Of a DNA stretch of 64,000 nt, positions 6,132 through 15,593 are shown piece by piece (the first letter of the stretch is position 1; every line of letters begins with the position of its first letter). Source of the DNA: Kofleriaceae bacterium. Lineage in GTDB: Bacteria; Myxococcota_A; Polyangia; Haliangiales; Haliangiaceae. The notes beneath the pieces were generated by a model. The model ran no database searches, was not told the origin of the DNA, and was given only the letters and a program-made list of their open reading frames with translations. The stretch covers positions 35,186 through 99,185 of the forward strand of contig JAGPCY010000018.1 of the NCBI GenBank assembly GCA_018057825.1, written 5' to 3'. The translations under genes and the position numbers were made by a program.

Positions 6132-7010
6132 TCACGCCAGGCGCGGGATGATGCGCAGGCGATAGCCGAAGCGGTGGCGCGACTCGATCAGGTCGCCGAT
6201 CTCGACCTTGATGAGCGCGCGGCGGACGCGTCGCACGAGCTGCTTGACGTGGTTGTCGCCGGGGTCGCGGGTGTCCCACGACAGGTCGCCGATCAGCTCG
6301 GAGGTGCGGACGAAGCCGCGGACCATGTGGGGCTGGTGGGCCTCGTCGGCCATGCGCCGGACCAGGAGCGCGAAGAACTCGAACTGCGTGGCGGTGAGCT
6401 GCACTTGCTTGCCGGCGACTTCGACCAGCCCGCCGCCGCCGCCGGTCGGCTCGTGCAGGCGGACGTCGAGGGTCGGCAGGCCGACGTCGGTGCTCTCGCG
6501 CTCGAACTCGCCGTCGTCGACCGGCGAGGTCAGGCGATCGCCCGGGCGCAGGGTCGAGCTGAAGGCCGGATCGAGGGTGACCGGCGGCAGGCTGGCGCCG
6601 TCGGGGATGAAGTAGAAGCCGACCTGGCCGAACATCACCCGATCGCCCTTCCGCAGGGTCACCGCCTCGTCGATCGTGGCCTCGTTCACCATCGTGCCGT
6701 TGGCCGAGCCGAGGTCGCGCAGCGCCCACTGCTTCTTGACCGGATCGATCGACAGGTGGGCGTGGTGACGCGACACCGAACTCTCGAGGATGCTGACCCC
6801 AGCGCCCTCGAGCTGTCGGCCGATCAACGTGCGCGCCTCGAGGGGGTGGGGCCGGCCCCAGGGATCGATCAGCACGGCGCCGGTCGGCTTGGCGGTGGTG
6901 GTCAAGACCTGCTCTGGCACCAGCCCCAGCGGGCCGGCCACTTCCTCGCGACAGTCCTCACACAGGAGGCCGCTCTCGACGGGATGGCGCGCACAGACCG
7001 CACAGTTCAT
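6132..7010 (-). CDS. FHA domain / winged-helix regulator with N-terminal Cys pairs
   Basis: A 292-aa cytoplasmic protein. The N-terminus carries two CxxC pairs (C3/C6, C17/C20) that look like a small zinc ribbon. Residues about 42-135 form an FHA phosphothreonine-binding domain with GR (64-65), SSVSRHHA (77-84) and GSANGT (101-106). The C-terminal part from about 190 resembles an OmpR-type winged helix (TATQFEFFALL, VKQLVRRVRRAL, ESRHRFGYRL). Reading: a phospho-Thr signal from a Ser/Thr kinase is coupled to DNA binding. Start ATG at 7010; longer open frames upstream are shadows. Last gene of the minus-strand run from 15593. Confidence 0.85.
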   Translation of the reverse strand: MNCAVCARHPVESGLLCEDCREEVAGPLGLVPEQVLTTTAKPTGAVLIDPWGRPHPLEARTLIGRQLEGAGVSILESSVSRHHAHLSIDPVKKQWALRDLGSANGTMVNEATIDEAVTLRKGDRVMFGQVGFYFIPDGASLPPVTLDPAFSSTLRPGDRLTSPVDDGEFERESTDVGLPTLDVRLHEPTGGGGGLVEVAGKQVQLTATQFEFFALLVRRMADEAHQPHMVRGFVRTSELIGDLSWDTRDPGDNHVKQLVRRVRRALIKVEIGDLIESRHRFGYRLRIIPRLA

Positions 7011-7105: not shown

Positions 7106-7981
7106 TCACGGTGCGACGGCGAAGCCGCGGCCCGGCTCGGCCGGGAACGGCGTCGCGCGATCGCGGCGGTCGAGCTCGGCCGGGGTCCAGCGCGCGCCGC
7201 GCTCGGCGAACAGCGCGACCCCGATCACGCCGACGTTGCGATCGTCGCCGGTGGCGGCGGCGTACGAGCCGGACACCTTGCCGAATCGGAAGGCCGCGAC
7301 CTCGGCCTCGCTGTGGCGGAAGCCGTCGATCACCAGCTCGCCGTGGGCCTCGACCACGTAGCCGCGCCGATCGAAGCCGGCCGGGCGCCCGTCGATGACG
7401 TCGAGCCCATCGACCGAGGCCACGACCTCGAAGCGCGCGCTGGTATGGTTGCGCACCGCGATGCGGTAGCGCGCGCCGTCGCGCGCGGCCAGGAGCGTGC
7501 GACCGCCGGCGGTCAGCCCGGGCAGGGGCGCGCCGGCGTCGTCGATCACCGCGATCGCGAGGTCGCCGTCGCCGGCCCAGGTCTCGAGCGGGGCCAGGCC
7601 GGTGCCGAGGTGGGCGGCGTGGGCGGCCACGCCCTCGGCGTCGTTGTAGTGCAAGACCGCGGTCGCCCACGGGTTGGCCTCGGCGCGGACGAACGGCGTG
7701 GTCGTGATGGGCGACCAGGTGTGCTCGCCCCAGGCGGTGGCCAGGCCAGGGCGCTCGACGGGATCGGGGGCGACGACCGGCGCGACCACCACGTGGGGCG
7801 GCGCCACCGGCGACGAGGCGGCCGCGGGTGCGCTCGCCAGCGGCGCCGCGCTCGGGGTGGTGGCGATCGGCGCTGGCCCGCCGCCGCCCGGCGGGTAGCC
7901 CGGCGGGCGGGCACCGGCGGCGCACGCGGTGGTGACGAGGAGAGCGAGCGGGAGGGCGGGGAGGCGGATGGGGTGGGGCAT
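7106..7981 (-). CDS. Lipoprotein of unknown function
   Basis: A 291-aa predicted lipoprotein; the signal ends in LVTTAC with the lipid-carrying Cys at 20. A Pro/Ala-rich linker (about 21-65) leads to a beta-rich domain. The C-terminal half has IAVRNHTSARFEVVASVDGL and FRFGKVSGSYAAATGDDRNV followed by GVIGVALF; I recall similar segments in uncharacterised proteobacterial proteins but cannot name a function. ATG 7981 is preferred over an in-frame start at 8002 because GAGGA lies just upstream. It lies 93 bases after the 18-motif cytochrome and 95 bases before the FHA gene, so it may share their mRNA. Confidence 0.8.
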   Translation of the reverse strand: MPHPIRLPALPLALLVTTACAAGARPPGYPPGGGGPAPIATTPSAAPLASAPAAASSPVAPPHVVVAPVVAPDPVERPGLATAWGEHTWSPITTTPFVRAEANPWATAVLHYNDAEGVAAHAAHLGTGLAPLETWAGDGDLAIAVIDDAGAPLPGLTAGGRTLLAARDGARYRIAVRNHTSARFEVVASVDGLDVIDGRPAGFDRRGYVVEAHGELVIDGFRHSEAEVAAFRFGKVSGSYAAATGDDRNVGVIGVALFAERGARWTPAELDRRDRATPFPAEPGRGFAVAP

Positions 7982-8074: not shown

Positions 8075-9544
8075 TCAGCGACCGTGGCAACGCGCGCAGC
8101 CGTGGCCGGTCATGCGAAAGGCCGCGACCCCGTCGTGACACGGCGCGCAGGTCGCTTTGCCGGGCGACGGCAGATCGACGACCGCGGCGCTGGCCGCCAC
8201 CGCGCCGTGGCAGGTGACGCACGGCACCGGCTGACCGTCGTGGGTCCGGTGCGGTCGGTGGCGAAACCGAACTCGCACCGACCACGGCGCCGCCGCCCGC
8301 GCGCGATCGCGGTTGGCTTCGCGATCGAGGCCGTGGCACGCGACGCAGGCATCGAGGGGCGGCGCCGGGCCGGTGGCGTCGCCGTGGCAGCCGGCGTCGG
8401 CGCACGCGGCGTGGCCGCGCGGCGTTCGCAGCTCGCGGGTCGCGGTCGTGAGCTGATGGCAGCGCTCGCACGCCACGGCGGCGTGACGGGCGTGGGCGAG
8501 CTCGACGCCGAACTCCGAGCGCGGGCGCGGCGGCAGCGCCGCGGCCAAGGGGCGCCACGGCTCGGTCGCCAGGTGGCAGGCGCCGCAGATCGTCGGCTTG
8601 GTCGCGGTCAGATCGGCGGCGTGGCAGGCCGCGCAGGCGTCGTGATCGGGCGCCAGCGGCTGGCCGCCGCGATCGAGGCGATGGCACGAGGTGCACGTCG
8701 GCAGCGGCGCGCGGCGCTCATGGGCGCCGTGGTCGAAGCGTTCGATCGGCCGATGGACCGCGTACGGCTCGGTCGGGGCCGCGGTGTGGCAGCGGGTGCA
8801 CGCGGTGGTCGCGGCGAAGCCGGCGACACCGTCGTGGCAGCCGGCCGGCGTGCAGGTGGCCTTGCCAGGCGTCGGCAGCGCCAGGTCGGCGGTGGCGGCC
8901 AGGCCGGCGTGGCAGGTCGCGCACGCGAGCGCGGCGGCGCGCGGCGCGCGGCTGAGATGTCTGCGGTGATCGAAGGCGGCGCCGACCGCGAGCGGCGGCG
9001 AGGCCAGGGTCGGCCGCAGGTTCACGCCGGTCCCGGCCGGGTGACAGGCGGCGCACGCGGTCATCGCTGGCGCGGCGGCGCGGCCGTCGTGGCAGGGGGC
9101 GCACCGCGCGTGGGGCCGCGGCGCGGCGGCGGTGGTCCCGGGGATCGCGTGGCAGGTCGTGCACGCGGCGGCCTGGTGTCGGGCGTGATCGAACGTCAGG
9201 CCGAAGTCGGGGTCGAGCTGGTAGGGCGGAAACGCCACCGCGGGGCGCCGGGCCGCGAGCTGTTCAGCGGGATGGCAGGCGGTGCACACCGCGGCGTCGC
9301 TCGGTCGACCGGGACCCGGCGCGGCATGGCAGGCGCCCAGGCACGCGCTGTGACCGGGTCGGCCGATCAGGGCGCCGCGGGCGCCGAGCGGATGACAGGT
9401 GGCGCACGCGATGGGATCGCGCCCGCTGACCGCGATCCGGCCGTCGTGGACGATGTGGGCGAAGCCGGTCGGTTGATCGGCGCGGGCCGTCGGCCCCGCG
9501 ATCAGGGCGACGCCGAGGACGAGCGCGACGATCGCGAGCCGCAT
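8075..9544 (-). CDS. Periplasmic multihaem cytochrome c (18 candidate haem sites)
   Basis: A 489-aa protein with a Sec signal (about 1-22, cleavage near ARA-DQ). I count 15 canonical CXXCH motifs plus one CX3CH (CLGACH, residue 68) and two CX4CH (CTPAGCH, CADAGCH), giving up to 18 haems. FxHxxH elements (FDHARH, FDHRRH, FDHGAH, FRHRPH) precede many of them, as in cytochrome c3/c7-type repeats. No membrane anchor or catalytic domain is visible, so its role is electron wiring. The ATG shares one base with the barrel gene's TGA (TGATG), so translation is coupled. It is the natural partner of the barrel and the 15-motif lipoprotein upstream. Confidence 0.9.
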   Translation of the reverse strand: MRLAIVALVLGVALIAGPTARADQPTGFAHIVHDGRIAVSGRDPIACATCHPLGARGALIGRPGHSACLGACHAAPGPGRPSDAAVCTACHPAEQLAARRPAVAFPPYQLDPDFGLTFDHARHQAAACTTCHAIPGTTAAAPRPHARCAPCHDGRAAAPAMTACAACHPAGTGVNLRPTLASPPLAVGAAFDHRRHLSRAPRAAALACATCHAGLAATADLALPTPGKATCTPAGCHDGVAGFAATTACTRCHTAAPTEPYAVHRPIERFDHGAHERRAPLPTCTSCHRLDRGGQPLAPDHDACAACHAADLTATKPTICGACHLATEPWRPLAAALPPRPRSEFGVELAHARHAAVACERCHQLTTATRELRTPRGHAACADAGCHGDATGPAPPLDACVACHGLDREANRDRARAAAPWSVRVRFRHRPHRTHDGQPVPCVTCHGAVAASAAVVDLPSPGKATCAPCHDGVAAFRMTGHGCARCHGR

Positions 9545-11226
9545 CAGTACTGGCCCTCGACCAGGATGCGCAGCGCCTTCAGCCCGGCGATCTCGGGCGC
9601 GGTGGCGAAGCGGTTGGTCAGCTCGTAGGTGGTGTGGACGCGCAGCCGCGGGGTGATCCACGCGTCGAAGGCGAACCGGGCACCGCCGTGGATCGTGTCG
9701 AGGTCGAGGGGTTCGGTCAGCTCGTGCTCGCTGTCGGCGATGCCGTCGTCGCGGTACAAGAGCGCGTGGCGGGTGCGCCGGGCGTAGATCTCGGCGGTGG
9801 CCGAGAACTTGCGGGCGCCACCGGTGAAGCGGGCCGCGACGCCGCCCTCGAACAGCGAGCGCTCGCCGATGTGCTCGCCGGTCGCGGGCAGCGGCAGGGC
9901 GTGGCCCTCGAGATCGATGAGCTGCTCGGCCGGCACCGCGTCGGTGCGCGCGTAGATCCGCCCCAGGCCCGACAGCGTGAGGCCGAGGGTGCGCCGCAGG
10001 CGCATCTCGACCGCGCTGCCGCCCTCGAGCCAGCCGGGGCTGGTGCGGGTCGGGGCCTGATCGTCGTCGCGCTCGTCGAGCGCTGCGCCGCCGAACAGCA
10101 AGGCGTCGATGTTGTCGAGCAAGACCGTGCCGGCTCGCACCCGCACGGTCGTGCGCGCGGTCGGAGGTCCGAGATCGAGGTAGCGGCGCGGCTGGGTCGG
10201 ATCGTTGTCGCTGACCCGCTCGTAGTCCCACAGCCAGTCGGCGCGCTTGCGGCTGGTGGCCTCGATCGCCAGGCGAGTCTCGTCGGAGACGCGGATCCGC
10301 AGGGTGGCGCGGTGGTGGGCGATCGCGTCGTCCTTGATCCGCGACACCGCGCTCAGGTCGACGTCGGGGCGCGGCCGCCAGTCGATCGCGACGTCGGCGT
10401 GGGTGTGGCCGGCGTAGCGCAGGCCGCGCGCGCGCGCGGTCAGGGCGCGTGGACCATCGACGAGCGGGATCCGCAGCTCGCCGCCGAGCACCAGCCCGCG
10501 GGCGTCGGCGGCGCGGACCTCCGACGCCCAGTCGGGCACGCGCGAGCCGAGGTAGGCGGCGACGTGCAGGCCGCGCGGCGCCCAGCTCACCCACAGACCG
10601 TCGAGGTGGACCGGTGCCGGGCCGTAGACGAACTGCCGGCCGGCCCGGAGCGCCAGGGTCCGTAGGGCGCCGGTGGCGACCAGCTCAGTGGCGTCGGCCC
10701 ACGCCGCGCGCACCGCCAGCGGATCGACCCGGTCCCAGGTGTCGACGATCGGCGCCCGGGTCCCGACCGCCGGGCGCAGCCGGAACTGCGACGCCAGGTA
10801 GGTCGCGACGCTGGGCGCGATCAGGCCGCGGGTCGACAGGAACAGCGCACCGAAGCCGTAGGCGCGGGCCGGGTTGAAGTCGGCGCCCGCGGTGTAGACC
10901 GAGCCGCCGATCGTCGTGCCGGTGGCCGGGCTGTCGCCGGCGCGGTTGCGCAGGCCGGCGCCGTCGATGGCCATGCCGAGCGAGAGCTGGGCCGACAGCC
11001 GCGGGGGCGGGGCGGTCGGCGCGGCGGTGGCCGGGGCGCGACGCGGCCGCGGTCGAGGGCGGCGCGGGGGCGGCGGCGTGGTCGTCGGCGACGGTTGCGG
11101 CGGCTGGGCCCGCATCGCCAGGTGGCGCGGCGTGGTCGGGACCTCGACGGTCGGCGGCAGGCCGGGCTGGGCCACCGCGGCCACCGGCGCCAGCGCGGCG
11201 AGCACCGCCCACCCGGTCCGACTCAC
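9544..11226 (-). CDS. Outer-membrane beta-barrel between two cytochrome genes
   Basis: A 560-aa protein with a signal peptide (about 1-19), a Pro/Arg/Thr-rich linker (about 20-75) and then alternating beta strands to a C-terminal Tyr (LRILVEGQY), the usual outer-membrane beta signal. No cysteines are present, so it lacks the CXXC seen near the N-terminus of Shewanella MtrB. Its position, four-base overlap with the upstream cytochrome lipoprotein and one-base overlap with the downstream cytochrome suggest a sheath that lets electrons cross the outer membrane, as in porin-cytochrome complexes. Family assignment rests on size, strand pattern and neighbours, not on a recognised motif. GTG start. 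Confidence 0.75.
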   Translation of the reverse strand: MSRTGWAVLAALAPVAAVAQPGLPPTVEVPTTPRHLAMRAQPPQPSPTTTPPPPRRPRPRPRRAPATAAPTAPPPRLSAQLSLGMAIDGAGLRNRAGDSPATGTTIGGSVYTAGADFNPARAYGFGALFLSTRGLIAPSVATYLASQFRLRPAVGTRAPIVDTWDRVDPLAVRAAWADATELVATGALRTLALRAGRQFVYGPAPVHLDGLWVSWAPRGLHVAAYLGSRVPDWASEVRAADARGLVLGGELRIPLVDGPRALTARARGLRYAGHTHADVAIDWRPRPDVDLSAVSRIKDDAIAHHRATLRIRVSDETRLAIEATSRKRADWLWDYERVSDNDPTQPRRYLDLGPPTARTTVRVRAGTVLLDNIDALLFGGAALDERDDDQAPTRTSPGWLEGGSAVEMRLRRTLGLTLSGLGRIYARTDAVPAEQLIDLEGHALPLPATGEHIGERSLFEGGVAARFTGGARKFSATAEIYARRTRHALLYRDDGIADSEHELTEPLDLDTIHGGARFAFDAWITPRLRVHTTYELTNRFATAPEIAGLKALRILVEGQY

Positions 11227-12485
11227 GGCGGGCTCCCGTGGCAGCGCGCGCAGTCGCGCGCGGGATCGTGGCAGGTGAGGCACTTGCCGAGATCCTGGCG
11301 CGCTTGATCGCCGTGCTCGGCGGCGTCGAAGCCCATGACGCCGTGCGAGCGCGGGCGCTGTTGGTGGCAGGCGGTGCAGGTATCGGCGACGTGGCAGGTC
11401 GCGCACCGATCTCGATCGACCATGGCCGAGGCCCCGTGATCGACCTCGCGCCACGCTAGCGTGTGATCGGTCGGACGCATGGTCTGGTGGCACTCGTCGC
11501 AGGCGTTGACCGCGCTGCCCGACATCAGGCCGTGGCAGCTCGCGCACCGTCGCGGGTCCGCCGCCTCGCTGGCGTGATCGCGGCGAAACGCCAGCGTGTG
11601 GGTCGCGGGGCGCTCGGTGGCCGGCAGGTGCGATCGCGGCGCGAGGGCGCCGAAGGTCAGCGAGATCTCGGTGTGGCAGGTCTCGCAGATCCGCATCCGC
11701 TTGGTGGTCGGGACCCGCGCGGGATCGTCGTGGCACGCCACGCACGCCGCCAGCGGTGGGGCCGGGAGGCGTCGGTCGGCGTCGTCGGCGCCGCCGCCCA
11801 GGTGGCAGGTCGAGCACCGCACCGCGGCGCCGCGGGCGTCGGTGGCATGGCGACCGTGATCGAACCGGACGTCGCGCACGATCAGGCGGCGCGGCGTGCG
11901 CGCGGTCGCGCCGGCGACGTGGCAATCGGCGCACCGCGACATGGCCGGGGCCTCGGGCAGGCCGACCTCGTCGGCGTGACAGCGAGCGCAGGCGCGATGG
12001 CCAGCGGTGGTCGGGCGGCCGGCGCCGTCGACCTCGTGACAGTCGGCGCACGCGACGTTGAACCCGACCGCGGCCTCCATCGCCGGGCGATCGAGGTGGA
12101 CGGCGTGCGAGAAGCGCGACGGCTCGGCGCGCACGCCATCGGTGGCCGGGTAGGCCCGCAGCGGCGACGGCGTGGCGCCGGTGGGATCGACCGCGACGTG
12201 ACAGACCCGACACAGCGGGCCCGGGTCGGTGACGAAGGCGGCCCGGTGGCAGCCGGCGGCGTCGCACGCGGCGTGGTCGTCGGCGCCCGGCATCCGGACC
12301 TGGCCGCTCGTGGCCGCGACCTGATCGTGGCACGGCGTGCATCCGAGCTCGCGGTGGGCGCCGTGGGGAAAGCGATCGGGCTCGGCGGTCGGGGCCAGCA
12401 GCGGCGTCGGCGCGGCGTTGCGGCAGGCGAGCACCGCGCACGCCAGCGCGGCGATCGCCAGCGACCACGCGCGCGGCAGGCCCAT
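11223..12485 (-). CDS. Multihaem cytochrome c lipoprotein (15 candidate haem sites)
   Basis: A 420-aa lipoprotein; the lipobox AVLAC places the acylated Cys at 21. I count 14 CXXCH motifs and one CX4CH (CDAAGCH), so up to 15 haems. Many follow F/H-rich segments (FPHGAH, FSHAVH, FDHGRH) typical of cytochrome c3-like folds. Lipidation suggests anchoring at the outer membrane, on the inner or outer face. Its GTGA overlap with the barrel gene and the second cytochrome behind it support one complex. The haem ligation sites are read from sequence; topology is inference. Confidence 0.9.
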   Translation of the reverse strand: MGLPRAWSLAIAALACAVLACRNAAPTPLLAPTAEPDRFPHGAHRELGCTPCHDQVAATSGQVRMPGADDHAACDAAGCHRAAFVTDPGPLCRVCHVAVDPTGATPSPLRAYPATDGVRAEPSRFSHAVHLDRPAMEAAVGFNVACADCHEVDGAGRPTTAGHRACARCHADEVGLPEAPAMSRCADCHVAGATARTPRRLIVRDVRFDHGRHATDARGAAVRCSTCHLGGGADDADRRLPAPPLAACVACHDDPARVPTTKRMRICETCHTEISLTFGALAPRSHLPATERPATHTLAFRRDHASEAADPRRCASCHGLMSGSAVNACDECHQTMRPTDHTLAWREVDHGASAMVDRDRCATCHVADTCTACHQQRPRSHGVMGFDAAEHGDQARQDLGKCLTCHDPARDCARCHGSPP

Positions 12486-12495
12486 GGCCCCGACG

Positions 12496-13485
12496 CTACC
12501 GCAGGTCGGACCCGGCGCGGTCGTCGGCGGCGGCGATCGCGTCCAGATCGGCCGCGGTGACGAAGGGGTGCCCCGGGCCCAGGGCGACCGCCCCGCGCCG
12601 TCGGCTGGCCGGGGCGTGGGGCCGCCAGCGGTAGATCGCGAAGGCCGGCGCGTCGACGGGGGTGTAGCGGGCGACGGTGAGCGCGCCGCCGAGAGCCGCC
12701 GGCGGTCCGTAGCGATCGTCGTCGGCGTCGACGGCGTGGACCACGACCGCGCCGGCCGGCGTGACCAGGCCGGCCGCCCGCGCCCACAGCGTCGCGAGCA
12801 AGGCCGCGCCGTCGTCGGCGACGTGCCACGCGGTGGCCGGGGCGCCGTCGGCGCGCTCGCGCGGGATCGGCGCGTTCAGCGTGATCAGGTCCCACGGCCC
12901 GTCGGCGGTGGCGACGCCGTCGACCTCCGCCACCGCGACGTCATCCCGACCGGCCAGCGCCAGGCCGAGGCGGGCCAGGGCGAGGGCGCGCGGCGCGCGA
13001 TCGGTGGCCCGCACCGCGGTGCCGCGGCGGCCCAGGGCCAGCGGCGCGGTCGCCGGGCCGGTGCCCACGTCGAGCCAGCGGTCGGGGCGCGCGCCGCCGA
13101 GGGCGCCGACCAGGTGCAGCGACGAATCGTCAGGCCACGGCACCCGGTCGGGCTCGAGGCCGGGGCGATCGCACACGACCAGGCCCAGGCCGACCGGGGC
13201 CAGGCGCAGCCGCGGCGTGGCCAGGGTCGCGGTCAGCTCGACCAGGCCGAGGTGCTCGGCCGCCGCGACCGCCGGGCCGCCGAGGGCGCGCTCGAGCGGG
13301 GCCCGCGGCACCGGCTGGCCGGCGCACCAAAGCCAGATCGGCGCGGCCGCCGGCGGCGGCGCGGCGGGCGCCGGCCGGGTCACGCGGGCGATCGCCGGCA
13401 CCGCCGAGGCGCCGAGGCAGGCCAGGGCGGCGCGCGGCGTCAGCCACGGCGCGAGGGCGCGGCCGAGGTCGGCCGCGCCGATCAC
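12496..13485 (-). CDS. Class I SAM-dependent methyltransferase
   Basis: A 329-aa protein with a SAM-binding motif I, RWLDVGTGPATAPLALG, at about 135-150. DLITLNAPIPRERA replaces the NPPY motif of HemK/PrmC or RsmC-like enzymes by NAPIP, so the substrate may differ from glutamine or guanine amino groups. The N-terminal 130 residues are variable, as in two-domain methyltransferases. The GTG start overlaps the TPR lipoprotein stop by four bases, and the cytochrome lipoprotein starts ten bases downstream. The substrate cannot be deduced; modification of a conduit component is only a guess from position. Confidence 0.8.
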   Translation of the reverse strand: MIGAADLGRALAPWLTPRAALACLGASAVPAIARVTRPAPAAPPPAAAPIWLWCAGQPVPRAPLERALGGPAVAAAEHLGLVELTATLATPRLRLAPVGLGLVVCDRPGLEPDRVPWPDDSSLHLVGALGGARPDRWLDVGTGPATAPLALGRRGTAVRATDRAPRALALARLGLALAGRDDVAVAEVDGVATADGPWDLITLNAPIPRERADGAPATAWHVADDGAALLATLWARAAGLVTPAGAVVVHAVDADDDRYGPPAALGGALTVARYTPVDAPAFAIYRWRPHAPASRRRGAVALGPGHPFVTAADLDAIAAADDRAGSDLR

Positions 13486-15593
13486 GGGCGGCCGAGCTGG
13501 TGGCGCGCCATGTCGTACTCGAAGAACAGCACCAGGTTCGACGCCACGACGTCCTCGAGGAGGGCTCGGCGCGCCTGGTCAGTCGGGCCGGTCAGGACCG
13601 CGGTGTAGTAGGCCAGCTCGGTCTGGCGCGGCCGGGTCCGGGCGCGCTCGGACAGCTCGGCGGGGGTGCGGCGGCCGCTCGCCAGCCGCGCGATCTCATC
13701 GTACCAGAGCGGCCCGTCGCGCTCGGCCAGGTAGGCCTGGGCCTGGGGATCGGTGTCGCCGAGCCGGCGGCTGGCGGCGAGGATCCACAGCGCCATGTAG
13801 ACCTTGTAGTAGTCGCCGATGCGGTTGGACGCCAAGGCCTGGTAGAAGAGGTCGCGGGCGTCGCCGAACCGATCGTGTAGCAGCAAGAACGCGACCGACT
13901 GGATATGGGTGTCGGCGCCGTCGGGGTCGGCCTCGCTGGCGGTGGTGATCAGCTCGACGCCGTCGTCGGGTTTGTCGAGGGCCCAGAACAGCTTGCCGCT
14001 CTCGACCAGGCGCTCCCCGGCCAGGTTGGGGGGCAGCTCGACCCGGCGCCCGAGGTCGGCCCACAACCCGAGCGCGGCGACGTAGTGATCGCGGGCCGCG
14101 GCGGTGGCGCCCGCGGCGTCCGCGGCGTCGCCGGCCAGGCGCAAGAGCTTGGCGCGCGCGTACAGCTCCGCCGGGCGGTCGCCGGGCAGGCCGATCGCGC
14201 GCTCGAACCAGGTCCGGGCCTGGCCGGCCTGGCCGGTCTTCAGCGCGATCGTGCCGAGCATCTCGAGGGCCTCGATCGTCGGTGCCACCCGGACCGACTC
14301 GGTGAGCGCGGCGCGCCCGGGCGCGAGCTCGCCCTGGCTCACCAGGCCGCGGCCGTAGACCGCGAGGAGCTGGGCCCACCGCACGTCCCAGTCGTCGCCG
14401 GGCTGGGCCTTTCGCAGCTCGGCGATCAACGTCCGGCCGCCGGCCAGGCAGTCGGCGGCGGCCGCCAGCCGACCGGCGAAGACCAGGCGACCGAGGCGCT
14501 CGCGGTAGAGCGCGAGCAGGCGGTCGGCGACCTCGCGATCGTCGGGGACCCGGGTCAAGACCGCGCGCAGGAGCGCGGTCGGCCGGGCCACCTCGTCGAG
14601 CTCGATCGCGGCCAGCGCGGCCGCCGTCGCCAGGGTCGGGTCGTCCGGAAACCGGACGAGTCCATCGAGGGCGATCGCCAGGGCGGCGCGCAGCCCGGTC
14701 TCGCGGTCGGTCTGATCGTCATCGGCGCGCACCGCCTGGGCGAGGGCGGCCCAGGCGGCGGGGTCGGCGGTGGGCGCGGCGACCGCGGCCGCGGCGCGAT
14801 CGAGGGCGCGATCGCGCCCGAACCCGCGCAGCCCGGCCAGGGTGCCGGCGATCCGATCGGCGCCGCGGTTGGCCGCGAGGGCGACCGCGACCTCGCGTCC
14901 GGCGTCGAGCGCGGCGCGCAGCGCCGGGTTGGCGGCGTCGAGGCCGCGGCCGGTGGCGACCGCGGCGTCGGCCCGGTTGGCCCGCTCGATCACCAGGCCG
15001 ACGTAGCGATCGACCAGCTCGGGCGCCAGCCCGCGGCTGATGATCGGCGCCAGGGTCGCGATCGGCCCGCCGCCGCGGCCGAGCTCGCCGACCCGGGCCA
15101 CGATCGCGGCGTCGGTGAACGCCAGGATCTGATCGAGCTCCTCGCGATCGTCGGCGGCGTGGGTCGGGTCGACCGCGGCCCGCACGACCAGCACCAAGGC
15201 GGCCTCGCGATCGGCGCCGCCGCGGGCGAACCCGGCGCGGGCGCGCTCGAGGCGCGTGGCCAGCTCGGGGACGTCGCCCAGCTCGGCCAGCCCGCCGGGA
15301 TCGCCGCGGTACAGATCGGCGAGGCCGAGCACCAGGGCGGCGGCGCGATCGAGGCGGCGGTTGCCGATCGCCCGATCGAGGCGCTCGACCACCACCGCCG
15401 CCAGCTCGCGGCGCAAGGCGGTCCGCGCGGCGCCGACCGGCAGCGCGATCAGGGCGTCGGCGCGTTCGGCGAAGTCGAGCTCGTCGGCCAGCTCGTAGGG
15501 GGCGTCGACCGGCGGCGGCGGCGGCGCCGCCGGGCGGTGGGGCCCGCGACAGGCGAGGGCGGCGAGGACGACGAGCGCTGACAGGAGCCGCAC
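13482..15593 (-). CDS. TPR-repeat lipoprotein
   Basis: A 703-aa lipoprotein with lipobox LAALAC (Cys 15), a proline linker, and then mostly alpha-helical repeats. TPR-like units are clearest near [20 protein letters not shown] and [21 protein letters not shown]. It probably acts as a periplasmic scaffold. It is the first gene of the minus-strand operon with the methyltransferase and cytochrome-barrel genes. GTG start 74 bases from the divergent lysC start, so the shared gap 15594-15667 must contain promoters for both directions. Confidence 0.82.

Follow-up and report, generated by a model that had tools for sequence, protein, structure and literature searches.

A candidate porin-cytochrome conduit with 15- and 18-haem cytochromes in an order of myxobacteria

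Gene organization of the locus

The window is a stretch of 64,000 nucleotides from a bacterium of the Kofleriaceae, and its minus strand carries two multihaem cytochrome genes, cytA and cytC, with the gene of a predicted outer-membrane beta-barrel between them. The genes of this region are given below in their 5' to 3' order on that strand.

13482-15593, minus strand: TPR lipoprotein with lipobox ALAC, first gene of the operon
12496-13485, minus strand: methyltransferase-like gene with weak HemK/MTS similarity, accessory
11223-12485, minus strand: cytA, 420 aa, lipobox VLAC with Cys21, 14 CXXCH and 1 CX4CH motifs (15 in all)
9544-11226, minus strand: barrel, 560 aa, GTG start, no Cys, C-terminal Tyr
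8075-9544, minus strand: cytC, 489 aa, signal peptide, 15 CXXCH, 1 CX3CH and 2 CX4CH motifs (18 in all)
7106-7981, minus strand: lipoprotein downstream of cytC, shared by the genus and some of its family
6132-7010, minus strand: FHA/winged-helix protein, possible regulator

A sequence-only reading of this DNA had described the three central products as a 15-motif lipoprotein, a cysteine-free 560-aa barrel ending in tyrosine and an 18-motif periplasmic cytochrome, encoded head to tail with overlapping stops and starts. The coordinates, the motifs, the lipobox and the signal peptide all agree with that description, and the overlaps are 4 bases (GTGA) between cytA and the barrel gene and 1 base (TGATG) between the barrel gene and cytC. 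Among the open reading frames of the window, only cytA and cytC have at least three CXXCH motifs; 2000 shuffles of their sequences produced on average 0.16-0.19 CXXCH and never more than 3. There is one haem motif for every 28.0 residues in cytA and every 27.2 residues in cytC, a closer packing than the roughly 33 residues per haem of MtrA homologues (PMC5566968).

The methyltransferase gene and the TPR lipoprotein gene do lead the operon, as had been noticed, and they differ in standing. The TPR gene is widely conserved and adjoins cytA in most complete window-type loci, whereas the methyltransferase gene is absent from more distant loci and was therefore rejected as a core part of the conduit. 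In the nearest relative (L005/L023), the homologous genes are likewise followed by the lipoprotein and FHA/winged-helix genes that stand after cytC in the window. Promoter and terminator scans of the locus found nothing, none of the operon genes encodes a polytopic protein, and no gene for an inner-membrane electron donor is present in the window operon.

The two multihaem cytochromes

CytC is composed of six tandem c7-type trihaem modules, and an FxHxxH-type ligand motif is found in every one of them. It matches the Pfam model Cytochrome_C7 (4.7e-20) and, above the cut-off, the trihaem nanowire domain of NCBIfam (nanowire_3heme, TIGR04257), and the best solved relative of its profile is GSU1996 of Geobacter (structure 3ov0, 1.5e-23). 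The haem-binding Cys and His residues are invariant among 10 aligned homologues. The third distal-ligand position is more variable: in modules 1, 2, 4 and 5 the residue three places ahead of the middle haem is His, in module 3 it varies and is not His, and in module 6 it is Lys in nine of the 10 homologues and Met in L033 (the positions of modules 3 and 6 lie at residues 226-231 and 461-466). Since the ligand position varies among the modules, haem ligation probably differs from module to module, and the conserved Lys in place of His in module 6 suggests that this haem site is unusual or open. GSU1996 is a dodecahaem polymer of c7 domains with one His-Met haem per domain (PMC10138318). CytC shares its tandem trihaem domains, but it has six modules instead of four, it is encoded with a porin, and four of its modules keep a His where GSU1996 has the His-Met haem, so the pattern of one such haem per domain is not found in it. 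The AlphaFold model of cytC was too poor to be used (mean pLDDT 47). With its signal peptide, cytC is predicted to be located in the periplasm, as the sequence-only reading had it.

CytA begins with three c7-like trihaem modules, which are followed by six C-terminal motifs of different spacing. Its above-threshold Pfam matches are Cytochrom_CIII (6.7e-15), Cytochrome_C7 (5.4e-14) and the domain II/IV model of MtrC/MtrF (5.3e-8), and its haem motifs are kept in 11 homologues. It is not a member of the OmcA/MtrC decahaem family, scoring 12.9 bits against TIGR03507, for which the cut-off is 209. A lipobox is present in the window protein and in nearly all homologues having an intact N-terminus, and cytA is accordingly predicted to be anchored in the outer membrane. 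It is probably a surface cytochrome, although the lipoprotein could face the periplasm instead.

The barrel

The AlphaFold2 model of the barrel, built on an alignment of 14 rows, is of moderate quality (mean pLDDT 62.5, pTM 0.62) and has about 20-21 strands, a count that is itself uncertain, with a Pro-rich linker at about residues 40-76 in a disordered N-terminal region ahead of the strands. The best 50 Foldseek rows of this model were almost exclusively outer-membrane beta-barrels, at about 10% identity and with E values from 2e-6 upwards; those listed include TamA, OprD-type porins, MOMP, OmpF, PelBC, a polysaccharide secretin and one mitochondrial outer-membrane barrel complex, among others. 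The terminal residue is Tyr or Phe in 14 of 14 barrels. These results agree with the barrel fold proposed earlier, and the protein is predicted to be an outer-membrane beta-barrel.

No family could be assigned to it. The barrel and 14 homologues matched no family of Pfam or NCBIfam, the MtrB and PioB models included, and gave only isolated chance hits at E<=1; the barrel profile had no match of note among PDB sequences and scored about 1 bit or less against a PCC3-like porin of Polaromonas (L006). The barrel family thus appears to be without a match to the available models, the Omb/Ext porins of Geobacter and the Oet porins being known here by description only.

Distribution and inheritance

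The barrel was found in 12 of 20 genomes, its own included, by a barrel search (all seven genomes of the genus are among them), and in 27 of the 35 genomes of the order by a profile search. A search of 58 genomes of the phylum, in which the best candidates of each genome were scored, gave no such barrel in the 56 that lie outside the order. A survey of gene order had been proposed as a check, and the order cytA-barrel-cytC turned out to be preserved in nearly all of about 30 fetched loci, with motif counts of 15 and 18 in nearly all complete copies. Identity to the window proteins is 38-62% for cytA, 24-58% for the barrel and 37-58% for cytC. Three genomes of one genus, g2 (L031, L075 and L076), have cytA and the barrel, with no cytC detected adjacent to them. 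In several families the TPR gene has an aspartokinase gene beside it, a shared setting that argues for vertical inheritance of the window-type locus; the cytA and barrel genes of g2 occupy this place too.

A scan for relatives with cytC gave one true relative, L005, which lies on the same contig as L023 of genome G003, and also two weak cytochromes, one in a PCC3-like locus (L006) and one a generic multihaem protein (L007). The former locus, from Polaromonas jejuensis (L006:7959-13415), encodes cytochromes with 21 and 12 CXXCH motifs and a probable porin of about 800 aa upstream of cytochrome c maturation-type genes; it resembles PCC3, to which it is assigned by gene content only.

A second, paralogous cassette is present in six genomes (L033, L034 of G007, and L088-L091). 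In the trees of all three genes the second copies group together as a single clade (support 0.94 for the barrel, 1.00 for cytA and 0.68 for cytC), and cytA, barrel and cytC were therefore most likely duplicated together as one unit. In L034, two genes of 9 motifs each take the place of a single cytC gene. The arrangement cytA-barrel-cytC is retained at the second-copy loci, where no TPR gene was detected. Behind the cassette are a 9-motif c7 cytochrome and a lipoprotein of about 1500 aa with 9 CXXCH. Divergent from it, as far as the contigs reach, lie the genes of a cNMP-binding/4Fe-4S membrane protein and of a flavoprotein, predicted to be in the inner membrane, in which FHA domains, a TM segment, seven haem motifs (CXXCH), a second TM segment, a 4Fe-4S part and an FAD/NAD(P) part follow one another. 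Together with the cassette, these surroundings (L034:260-16986, L033 and L088-L091) may make up a complete electron path from the cytoplasm to the surface. The make-up of this neighbourhood supports an electron-transfer role of the shared cassette. The genome of the window has a single barrel of the family, no second-copy neighbourhood is present in the window, and the nearest relative of the seven-haem flavoprotein in that genome is without a haem motif.

Other multihaem loci of the host genome

Three further multihaem loci were seen in the host genome. The C7 cluster (L106:1-8135) encodes a decahaem cytochrome of the OmcA/MtrC family, which scores 399 bits with TIGR03507 (cut-off 209), and close by a NapC/NirT-type cytochrome of the quinol dehydrogenase type. 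Further cytochromes of this cluster have 10+2, 12+1 and 27 motifs, and the stretch just upstream showed no MtrB-like gene. In C57 (L103:4945-7700), the gene of a c7-type cytochrome with 13 CXXCH overlaps that of a probable outer-membrane barrel of 529 aa, which is not related to the window barrel; the two form a second porin-cytochrome-like pair. A third candidate locus, C66 (L104:3634-9819), lines up the genes for a 4Fe-4S/membrane protein, for a cytochrome of 785 aa (27 CXXCH, 3 variant motifs) and for a probable barrel of 539 aa. With these loci, it is plausible that the host genome has electron-exchange partners at both membranes.

Comparison with known conduits

In Geobacter sulfurreducens, ExtEFG, ExtABCD and OmbB-OmaB-OmcB each combine a barrel (18-21 predicted strands) with lipoprotein and periplasmic multihaem cytochromes in one operon (PMC6148476). 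The cassette of the window is alike in these respects, including the size class of the barrel, but its haem numbers are 15 and 18, as compared to 5 and 12 in ExtF and ExtG or 12 in OmcB. OmaB has eight haems. The TPR lipoprotein and the restriction to one order also set the cassette apart from the Geobacter systems, a separation made on the published descriptions of the latter. The Pcc clusters of Anaeromyxobacter, itself a myxobacterium, are two-gene systems with cytochromes of 12-14 haems (PMC4245776). The OetABI system of syntrophic sulfate reducers of the Desulfobacterota, which occurs with the nanowire cytochromes OmcX/OmcS, consists of a periplasmic cytochrome, a porin and a lipoprotein cytochrome (PMC10553843); going by this description, it is the same three-part cassette.

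MtrCAB, MtoAB and PioAB share the conduit logic, and the match of cytA to the MtrC/MtrF domain model is a further likeness. Their barrels, however, are of the MtrB_PioB family, whose Pfam and NCBIfam models the window barrel does not match, and the CXXC of MtrB, reported missing by the sequence-only reading, is indeed absent from a protein without any Cys; the periplasmic partner here is a c7 polymer of six modules and 18 motifs and not an MtrA-like decahaem. Judged by sequence, the cassette is not an Mtr system, as three tested features (barrel family, periplasmic partner and TIGR03507) differ. The PCC3 systems of iron oxidisers also combine a porin with extracellular and periplasmic cytochromes rich in haems, but they include a conserved inner-membrane protein with five TM segments, and the median haem numbers of their cytochromes are 34 and 21 (He et al. 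2017, PMC5566968). The window operon has no such 5-TM protein, its haems are far fewer, and its barrel profile fails to pick up the PCC3-like porin from Polaromonas; on these two tested features, porin homology and the 5-TM protein, the cassette is not PCC3 either.

The suggestion that the operon is of an undescribed type may therefore hold for the barrel, which matches neither the MtrB/PioB models nor the PCC3-like porin, and does not hold for the three-part architecture, which is already known from ExtEFG, OetABI and PCC3. The total of 33 haems is correct as 15 + 18 motifs, and PCC3 carries many more. No description of the cassette was found in the literature; an unnamed entry for it may exist in the supplements of Garber et al. 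2024 (PMC11475568), a wide survey of multihaem clusters.

Discussion

We consider it likely that cytA, barrel and cytC constitute a lineage-specific porin-cytochrome conduit which works like the Ext/Pcc systems of Geobacter and the Mtr system of Shewanella. As in conduits in general, a predicted outer-membrane beta-barrel is encoded beside an exported multihaem cytochrome, and a lipoprotein multihaem cytochrome is encoded in the same operon. The barrel, predicted by its fold to cross the outer membrane, would serve as an insulating sleeve. CytC, a c7 polymer of six modules and 18 haems, would take electrons from periplasmic carriers or give electrons to them, and its end may insert into the barrel or abut it. 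CytA, fixed to the far side of the outer membrane, would exchange electrons with an external partner, e.g., a mineral, a humic substance or another cell, so that a chain of haems would run across the outer membrane. The three proteins would form one functional unit, inherited vertically and duplicated as a whole. We infer that cytA is exposed at the surface and that the cassette transfers electrons. The export signals, the haem motifs, the barrel model, the conservation and the co-duplication are in favor of a conduit, the related sequences being the strongest evidence, and so are the position of the second-copy loci next to the inner-membrane flavoprotein with 7 CXXCH and the 4Fe-4S membrane protein, the further multihaem loci of the host, and the precedents ExtEFG and OetABI. 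The moderate barrel model, the g2 loci without a detected cytC and the missing inner-membrane donor gene in the window operon stand against it. A porin-cytochrome conduit, as proposed by the earlier reading, is nevertheless the best explanation of the barrel fold, the gene order, the haem counts and the co-duplication.

The barrel might instead be an exporter or assembly channel, helped by the TPR lipoprotein, that delivers cytochromes, or filaments made of them, to the cell surface and conducts no electrons itself. A TPR lipoprotein does head the operon and is conserved with it, and secretion barrels (TamA, PelBC and the polysaccharide secretin) are among the top Foldseek matches. These matches, however, are a mixture of outer-membrane barrels at very low identity with no preference for secretion, the second-copy loci have the three genes with no TPR gene detected, and 15 and 18 motifs that are invariant over the order fit an electronically matched set better; we regard this explanation as unlikely. 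It is quite improbable that the two cytochromes serve to store or buffer electrons in the periplasm and that the barrel is an ordinary diffusion or metal-uptake porin of the same operon. GSU1996, to which the c7 polymer cytC is related, has been described as a capacitor (PMC10138318), but in the loci examined the barrel gene sits between the two cytochrome genes, its codons overlapping with theirs, and it was duplicated along with both; moreover, nearly every cytA homologue whose N-terminus is intact is a lipoprotein.

Membership of the cytochromes in a soluble respiratory enzyme system for nitrite, tetrathionate or a similar substrate, with no role at the outer membrane, would have spoken against the earlier reading, and it is very improbable. 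The similarities to QrcA, NrfA and the multihaem subunits of ACIII that could suggest it are partial, at the level of haem motifs and under the curated cut-offs, and a beta-barrel accompanies the cytochromes. The operon has neither a catalytic domain nor a reductase gene or other partner, for which reason a soluble reductase was rejected.

Returning to the conduit, a bolder proposal can be made for the paralogous copy. The order may have invented a conduit of its own, with a barrel unrelated in sequence to all known ones, and the duplicated copy may have been wired to a single inner-membrane protein, the flavoprotein with FHA repeats, seven haem motifs between two TM segments, 4Fe-4S and FAD/NAD(P) parts. 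This would create a genetically contiguous route for electrons, from NAD(P)H in the cytoplasm to the cell surface, which could bypass the quinone pool; we put it forward as tentative and rather doubtful.

The conduits known to cross the outer membrane are of a few seemingly unrelated types and come from metal-reducing or iron-oxidising bacteria, and a further barrel family would give a test case for conduit evolution. The constancy of 15 and 18 haem motifs, while the barrel falls to about 25% identity, offers a clean system for studying what fixes haem number. If the conduit is real, then, as the barrel family is present in most sampled genomes of the order, extracellular electron exchange would be a core trait in an order of myxobacteria where it has not been known.
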